From contig JANXTL010000212.1 in assembly GCA_025352375.1 (NCBI GenBank), positions 1 to 51,198 of the forward strand: a DNA stretch of 51,198 nucleotides, given 5' to 3'. Positions within the stretch are counted from its first letter, which is position 1. The number at the start of each line of letters is the position of its first letter. Shown here piece after piece: positions 18,043 to 47,731 of this stretch. The notes under the pieces were generated by a model. It was not told where the DNA came from. It saw only the letters and a list, made by a program, of their open reading frames with translations, and searched no databases. This DNA comes from Acetobacteraceae bacterium (GTDB lineage Bacteria > Pseudomonadota > Alphaproteobacteria > Acetobacterales > Acetobacteraceae). The position numbers and the translations under genes were made by a program.

Positions 18043-18177
18043 ATGACCTCGTTCGACTTCCTCGTCAGCGCCATCGTTTGGATATCCCTAGCCATGACCG
18101 GCGTGCTGCTTCTCTCGGCTGCGGGCCCGACCCGTAAGGCGATCGCGATTACCATCCAACGGCAGATGCGGCGCTAG
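18043..18177 (+). CDS. 44-residue single-helix membrane micro-protein
   Basis: This ATG-initiated frame has AAGGG about nine bases upstream. The peptide has one clear membrane helix (FLVSAIVWISLAMTGVLLLS) followed by a basic tail ending RQMRR. Its stop TAG (18175-18177) belongs to the CTAG end of the repeat copy that starts at 18174, so the present C-terminus was set by the element. Function is unknown. Confidence 0.5.
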   Translation: MTSFDFLVSAIVWISLAMTGVLLLSAAGPTRKAIAITIQRQMRR

Positions 18178-18292
18178 AGCGTGATCGCTTGAGGTTGACT
18201 TCAACCTCGGGCGTGAATCACCCTCTCAAACAAAGGCTTAGACCATGATCCAACGCCGAGATCGCGTGCGACCTCAAACGATCATGGTCTAG
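18174..18292. repeat. Modular palindromic repeat, copy 2 (B+A)
   Basis: The 119-bp composite runs from CTAGAGCGTGATC to GATCATGGTCTAG. The B module carries the GAGGTTGA/TCAACCTC hairpin and the A module the perfect 13-bp terminal inverted repeats. It lies exactly between two convergent genes: it gives the stop of the 44-residue ORF on the left and ends four bases before the stop of the glycosylase gene on the right. Its A module has the subtype CGTGCGAC also found in copy 3. A role as a bidirectional terminator or mRNA 3'-end stabiliser is possible. Confidence 0.92.
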
Positions 18293-37098: not shown

Positions 37099-37216
37099 CT
37101 AGAGCGTGATCGCCTGAGGTTGACTTCAACCTCGGGCGTGAATCACCCTCTCAAACAAAGGCTTAGACCATGATCCAACGCCGAGATCGCGTGCGACCTC
37201 AAACGATCATGGTCTA
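37099..37216. repeat. Modular palindromic repeat, copy 3 (B+A)
   Basis: The same B+A composite as copy 2, with A subtype CGTGCGAC. It begins with CTAGAGCGTGATC and ends with GATCATGGTCTA. On the left it follows the stop of the gene pair by eight bases. On the right its terminal CTA gives the stop codon (TAG on the minus strand) of a 43-residue ORF. It again lies between convergent reading frames. Confidence 0.92.
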
Positions 37217-47613: not shown

Positions 47614-47731
47614 TAGAGCGTGATCGCCTGAGGTTGACTTCAATCTCGGGCGTGAATCACCCTCTCAAACAAAGGCTTAGACCATGATCCAACGCCGAGA
47701 TCGCATGCAACCTCAAACGATCATGGTCTAG
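47614..47731. repeat. Modular palindromic repeat, copy 4 (B+A)
   Basis: The same B+A composite as copies 2 and 3. Its A module carries CATGCAAC, the subtype of copy 1. The left end reads TTAGAGC in place of CTAGAGC, and the B hairpin has one extra mismatch (TCAATCTC). The right end runs straight into sequence homologous to the N-terminus of a CMD-family gene with no ATG between them, so this copy probably replaced the 5' end of that gene. Confidence 0.92.

Follow-up and report, generated by a model that had tools for sequence, protein, structure and literature searches.

A 117-bp two-armed repeat of an Acetobacteraceae genome is most likely a passenger transposon moved by an IS630-type enzyme

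The window analysed here is a 51,198-nt stretch of contig JANXTL010000212.1 (assembly GCA_025352375.1) of an Acetobacteraceae bacterium, and it contains all four copies of a palindromic repeat that a first-pass annotation had claimed. Three of them lie on the plus strand and are complete 117-bp units in the arrangement B+A-, namely copy 2 at 18175-18291 (B arm 18175-18240, A arm 18239-18291), copy 3 at 37100-37216 (B arm 37100-37165, A arm 37164-37216) and copy 4 at 47614-47730 (B arm 47614-47679, A arm 47678-47730). Copy 1, on the minus strand at 89-269, has the arrangement A+B-B- with the A arm at 89-141, B arms at 140-205 and 204-269 and a common TA at each junction. Compared with copy 2 over 119 nt, copy 3 is 99% and copy 4 is 95% identical. 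The annotation had the loci right while adding a base outside the TA at an end, and its view of the same composite occurring four times holds for the three single 117-bp units but not for copy 1 with its second B, nor does it account for the junction TA that A and B share. The 13-bp perfect terminal repeats that it gave for A are likewise a real inverted repeat, but what all four A arms of the window share is the 12-nt TAGACCATGATC, base 13 being either C or T. Matches to the end CTAGACCATGATC at up to 2 mismatches number 13 in the window, 11 of them inside the four copies; shuffled sequence gave a mean of 0.59 and none of 100 shuffles got to 13.

A reading frame of 29 codons running in from the contig start ends at the TAG of copy 1 (89-91). 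The TAG of copy 2 is exactly the stop of an ORF of 44 codons (18043-18177) that includes a hydrophobic stretch, and copies 3 and 4 lie 9 bp and 5 bp respectively 3' of a predicted gene end. Elsewhere in the window a 56-nt direct repeat with 79% identity (1399-1454 and 1774-1829) falls inside one minus-strand ORF (1263-1904), and we take this to represent possibly two cold-shock-type domains. At gathering scores Rfam recognised no family in the window.

Measured from one terminal TA to the other, the unit is 117 bp long, made up of 115 bp and a duplicated TA. Arm B is 66 bp (TAGAGCGTGATC...AAACAAAGGCTTA) and arm A 53 bp (TAGACCATGATC...GATCATGGTCTA) with the junction TA common to both, and the linker between the hairpin arms contains AAACAAA. 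Each end of the unit forms a hairpin arm with an imperfect inner copy of its own sequence, and folding returned two strong hairpins (z of -6.3 as DNA and -7.0 as RNA). The supposed modules A and B are better read as the two fold-back arms of one element than as a composite.

The repeat was also counted in the host genome (G000; 5.12 Mb in 355 contigs, 98% complete). The exact 12-mer ends occur 263+252 times in it and the exact, full A palindrome 217 times, so that the four copies of the window are far from being the only ones as the annotation had allowed for, while the pattern of B, linker and TAGA occurs 137+131 = 268 times; the controls, a reversed pattern for the ends and the palindrome, gave 0 in each case. 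At least 17 of the 31 host-genome matches listed are 100% identical to the copy at 37100, itself included (26 of 333 candidates scored). Unit statistics were drawn from 63 host-genome stretches of 686 kb in total in which units were sought without gaps. Among 81 groups away from contig edges there were 67 single B+A- units, all of 117 bp, and 14 groups of other arrangement (6 arrays with extra B, 2 double units, 3 lone B and 3 lone A); these 14 and 10 edge groups were left out of the counts on 67 units. One host unit has a B arm without the usual 3-nt insertion. Solo 50-bp palindromes running from TA to TA were also seen in the host (L045 2037-2086, L053 6236-6285 and L202 13295-13344), each consisting of a pair of B outer ends set head to head and having no GANTC, and these are perhaps the simplest form of the element. 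Being short, non-coding and present in high copy number the family has the attributes of a miniature inverted-repeat transposable element (MITE), and the palindromes are most likely hundreds of copies of one 117-bp passenger transposon that moves by an IS630-type enzyme.

The boundaries of the single units are highly regular. The TA is intact on the left in 66 and on the right in 66 of the 67. In 66/67 the left TA is preceded by C or T, and in 66/67 the right TA is followed by A or G. Outer bases combine as CTA..TAA (29 units), CTA..TAG (15), TTA..TAG (15), TTA..TAA (6) and others (2). An almost exclusive insertion into TA with duplication of the TA is described for the IS630-family element ISY100 in PMC2170065, and a title cited there (Tenzen & Ohtsubo 1991) names TA in 5'-CTAG-3' as preferred.

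Comparison with a sister species (G210) revealed sites that are occupied in one genome and empty in the other. Two unoccupied sites could be aligned at one single TA, most flanks being unalignable at this divergence. At the first the host reads GAG ATT TAA ACG and G210 (L178 4838-4954) reads GAC ATT TA[unit]TA ACG; judged from these aligned bases, the unit is one that split a TAA stop codon and gave the gene a new stop. At the second the host has TTCTGCTAAAGG and G210 (L169 15937-16115) has GTTGC TA[unit plus shortened C]TA AGG. The insert at L169 15937-16115 apparently sits in the last codons of a gene, and by eye the frame continues into the element. Across the aligned intervals in which presence could be judged, three units are present in the host only (window 37100, window 47614 and L189 10000) and four in G210 only (L173 4625, L169 15937, L178 4838 and L170 9181). 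For copy 3 the corresponding G210 stretch is without the unit; for copy 4 the unit is absent from G210 and the flanks align, but there is no TA there in G210. Both species carry a unit at the same stop codon in opposite orientations at L189 7608/L018, and units are found in host and G210 alike in the region L191/L131/L178. A difference of 115 bp between the bounds of BLAST blocks (161 against 46) was seen for L173/L188 with a residue that is not alignable, and the comparison of L058 with L019 is not resolvable to base level. The many 100% identical copies and the several loci without a unit in the sister species support the suggestion of the first-pass annotation that this is a mobile non-coding family of recent spread.

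The units also show a distinct placement with respect to genes, which were predicted with a home-made caller. Gene 3' ends that face a unit number 66; 27 of them coincide exactly with its TAG and 3 lie 10 bp inside it. The 66 units placed lie between convergent genes in 18 cases, tandem genes in 30 and divergent genes in 5, with 13 at a contig edge, as compared with 50 convergent, 208 tandem and 82 divergent among 340 background gaps. None of the 66 lies inside a predicted gene, although this is a weak test as the stop codons of the unit would break an ORF that it entered. Out of 119 flanks, 49 remain open over 100 codons or more in the frame of the TAG as compared with 25 and 14 in the other two frames, a two- to three-and-a-half-fold excess that gene truncation alone would not give. 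Placement at gene ends is instead to be expected, since TAA and TAG stops that follow a pyrimidine are themselves YTAR sites and the TAG of the unit supplies a new stop.

Searching the genus with PF13358 pointed to a 1060-bp element in genome G219 with IS630-type ORFs. These match the IS630 transposase model NCBIfam NF033545 (E=4e-43) and DDE_3 (E=1.5e-32), and the element ends in TAGAGCGTGATCGTTTTAAGTTGAC and TAGAGCGTGATTGTCTGAAGTTGAC. With further ends from a DNA search that used it as query, the set came to 11 related ends from seven genomes (G219, G211, G210, G215, G227, G099 and the host, contig C27), several of which are short fragments at contig ends with no transposase gene visible in some. 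Over 23 positions the outer end of B agrees with the individual IS ends at 14-20 and that of A at 14-17, although A has a C at position 5 that is seen in 0/11 of the collected ends. The IS ends through which the match was first noticed also served to build a weight matrix. It scores the outer ends of B and A at 30.9 and 17.6 and the inner ends at -10.5 and -24.9, and the 1683 background TA sites of the window at 4.3 or less. Leaving out the host and G210 ends changed these little (32.0 and 16.3 for outer B and A, -9.3 and -24.8 for the inner ends). Throughout the host stretches examined 7 of 24,090 background TA sites reach or exceed the score of the A end, and the top four of these fall in the solo 50-bp palindromes of the same end, which had escaped masking. 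By comparison twelve ends of six IS630 elements of other clades have 1-10 matches of 23 to the unit. Because the outer ends match the IS630 set and the inner ends do not, the unit is to be regarded as one MITE and not as two modules.

We found no intact cognate IS in the host assembly, where this clade is represented by contig-end fragments only. The piece at the end of contig C27 has the end TAGAGCATGATTTTTTTAGG with 14 and 15 matches of 23, and contig C269 carries a contig-truncated transposase 56% identical to that of G219 with a visible end TAGAGCATTTTCCGATCAG. An IS630 on contig C150 with TAGATCATCGCGGCTGAAG ends seemed cognate at first and was rejected with 8-10 matches of 23. This C150 element of the IS630 family (L120 2137-3499) has TA-ended inverted repeats TAGATCATCGCGGCTGAAGTG that match at 21/22 positions and is not unit-like. 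Related transposases are also common among rhizobial plasmids (matching records of all kinds number 961, with the 25 listed at 55-65% identity), and among seven such loci inspected four have TAGAG at both ends and none a full unit end.

Each copy is therefore very probably a 117-bp MITE of the IS630 (Tc1/mariner-type) family whose outer ends correspond to IS630 inverted repeats, as judged from copies, boundaries, target preference, end homology and unoccupied sites that can all be read in the DNA. In this scheme the outer ends would be recognised by an IS630-family transposase supplied in trans, which would cut the element out and place it at a YTAR target with duplication of the TA, and the mobilising IS is or was presumably resident in the host. 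Since both strands of an intact unit start with TAG, insertion at the TA of a stop codon (TAA or TAG) would leave a stop there; such insertions would be tolerated and so accumulate at gene ends. The annotation had rightly argued that a unit too short to encode a transposase needs one in trans, and an IS630-family, Tc1/mariner-like enzyme is the partner that fits.

The example it gave of such a partner was a REP-associated tyrosine transposase (RAYT), and short, many-copied palindromes that now and then form tandem arrays do resemble REP/BIME-type elements moved by these enzymes. However the Y1_Tnp (RAYT) domain was not found in the 98% complete host genome by a search that was positive in 5 of 14 control genomes, and a 117-bp unit with TA/YTAR boundaries whose outer ends match IS630-type inverted repeats leaves this origin with hardly any credibility. 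Only marginally better placed, and still very improbable, is another DDE transposase that targets TA or YTAR, for instance an IS5-group enzyme making a 4-bp duplication. The consensus YTAR of the unit also fits IS5-group targets. However the base before the left TA varies separately from the one after the right TA, so that there is no 4-bp target duplication, and in none of 8 DDE_Tnp_1 (PF01609) loci is the transposase gene flanked by a pair of such ends. Units or parts of them adjoin DDE_Tnp_1-type genes at L079 870-950 (C342), L081 1260-1320 (C354) and L082 1330-1447 (C151), and at L079 and L081 the inverted-repeat pair of the IS begins at, or just within, the unit.

A different kind of explanation is that the host keeps the element for its structure or for regulation, as an mRNA 3' hairpin, a terminator-like signal or a CcrM-methylated site, with useful copies spread by recombination or by a long-extinct transposase. 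The two strong hairpins and the location at gene ends would suit such a role, as would the motif GANTC, which is present in 101/102 B arms against 1/88 A arms. It accompanies the 3-nt insertion in the inner end copy and sits in arm B where a 3-nt bulge interrupts the stem. Outside the elements GANTC is found 1259 times against 2279 expected from base composition, or about half, and the host genome has a CcrM-like methylase gene (PF01555 and PF18755). We aligned 22 units from seven genomes, 21 of them unique, after dropping 3 of 25 that were cut or had no clear end. Paired substitutions across species are clear for arm A (311/355 cells paired, reached by 0/500 shuffles; 5 double-changed pairs against 1.4) and marginal for arm B (324/439 paired, reached by 3/500 shuffles; 5 double-changed pairs against a shuffle mean of 4.1), and an argument from covariation for selection on arm B was set aside as weak. 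GTGAATC is kept in 17 of the 21 unique units but missing in the other four, all from G211. Moreover insertions from TA to TA with unoccupied sites in the sister species and many identical copies point to movement, and the gene-end placement follows from tolerated stop-codon insertions, so that we regard upkeep by the host as improbable, if less so than the two other enzymes.

As to distribution, BLAST detected a relative in 17 of 33 genomes of the genus. Units of G210 are 99% identical to those of the host even though aligned blocks of at least 2 kb are just 73-82% identical, and such near-identity in two so distant species suggests that units were either transferred recently or recently amplified from one common source. 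Other members of the genus have, among the matches listed, versions 72-97% identical over all or part of the unit. More widely, the exact-ended palindrome occurs in 7 of 200 genomes of the family, six with different cores, and the strict two-arm pattern in 1 of 289 sampled genomes of the class, this one being the host. Three Mesorhizobium contigs carry a TA-to-TA palindrome of 53 bp with identical 12-nt TAGACCATGATC ends, and matches with TAGACCATGATC ends were obtained in 289 of 72,556 plasmid records, 263 of them from Rhizobium. These Mesorhizobium and Rhizobium palindromes have the same TAGACCATGATC ends but a different core, and names such as RIME or Bru-RS may apply to them. A plasmid DNA search with the whole unit gave no match at E 0.01. 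G210 has in addition a second two-armed family (L018 4099-4260, L019 ~1050-1180, and also L013, L014 and L028), consisting of C and a TAGATCGCGATACGTGAG...CATCGCGATCTA palindrome. It has TA ends, GANTC and a AACAAACAA linker, and some of its members are joined to B+A- units via a common TA.

Among known repeats the closest in architecture are the CcrM-associated intergenic repeats (CIR) of Caulobacter (Chen & Shapiro 2003, as cited in a 2007 review, PMC2229807). The review's account of CIR gives them a length of ~110 bp, two inverted-repeat arms and a linker, TA at both termini, GANTC in or at a terminal loop of one arm and an intergenic position. Going by that description the unit resembles CIR in size, in its two arms and linker, in its TA termini and GANTC and in its alphaproteobacterial host, and differs in having GANTC at the stem bulge of arm B instead of a terminal loop. 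The same account calls CIR only partly MITE-like and asks for more information on their movement, and a 2024 review names CIR in a main text that has no occurrence of IS630. The RUP elements of Streptococcus pneumoniae (107 bp, 108 copies) are linked in PMC2229807 to a TA target and IS630-Spn1, with an IS630-type transposase proposed to act in trans; they have a 9-bp inverted repeat and no DNA motif, and that survey describes arms and linker for CIR alone among its repeats. RUP and the unit are both short and share TA and an IS630-type enzyme in trans, while RUP differs in sequence, in host and in lacking arms and linker. With the IS630 family proper the unit has in common the TA target and its duplication and inverted repeats like those of the G219 element, although it is too short for a transposase.

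IS630-linked MITEs are thus already known as a kind through RUP, and the architecture of two arms, linker, TA and GANTC appears, by description, to be that of CIR. What is added here is the match to IS630 ends, the YTAR target, the unoccupied sites and the placement at stop codons. Neither the unit sequence nor this combination of features was found in the open-licence literature, a scope that leaves subscription papers mostly outside, and six 10-mers of the unit gave, among the matches listed for open-licence papers, none related by title.

A wider and more tentative reading, which we hold to be possible though doubtful, is that the GANTC-bearing, two-armed, TA-ended intergenic repeats of the CIR type in alphaproteobacteria belong as a whole to the IS630-mobilised MITEs with fold-back ends and colonise stop codons via their TAG, and that through GANTC their transposition, or gene expression nearby, may be linked to methylation by CcrM and to the cell cycle. 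The methylation part draws on the retention of the motif and the CcrM-like gene, and the confinement of the strict two-arm pattern to the host among the 289 sampled class genomes speaks against a class-wide interpretation.

For a look-alike of CIR the end-matched IS630-type elements in the same genus, together with the YTAR target and the unoccupied sites, offer a concrete answer to the question of mobility, and one that can be put to the test with one transposase and one 117-bp substrate. The replacement of a split stop codon by an inserted TAG would provide a simple reason for settling at gene ends. Taken as a family, the units suggest a way in which a class of repeats that has been puzzling in alphaproteobacteria might be spreading.
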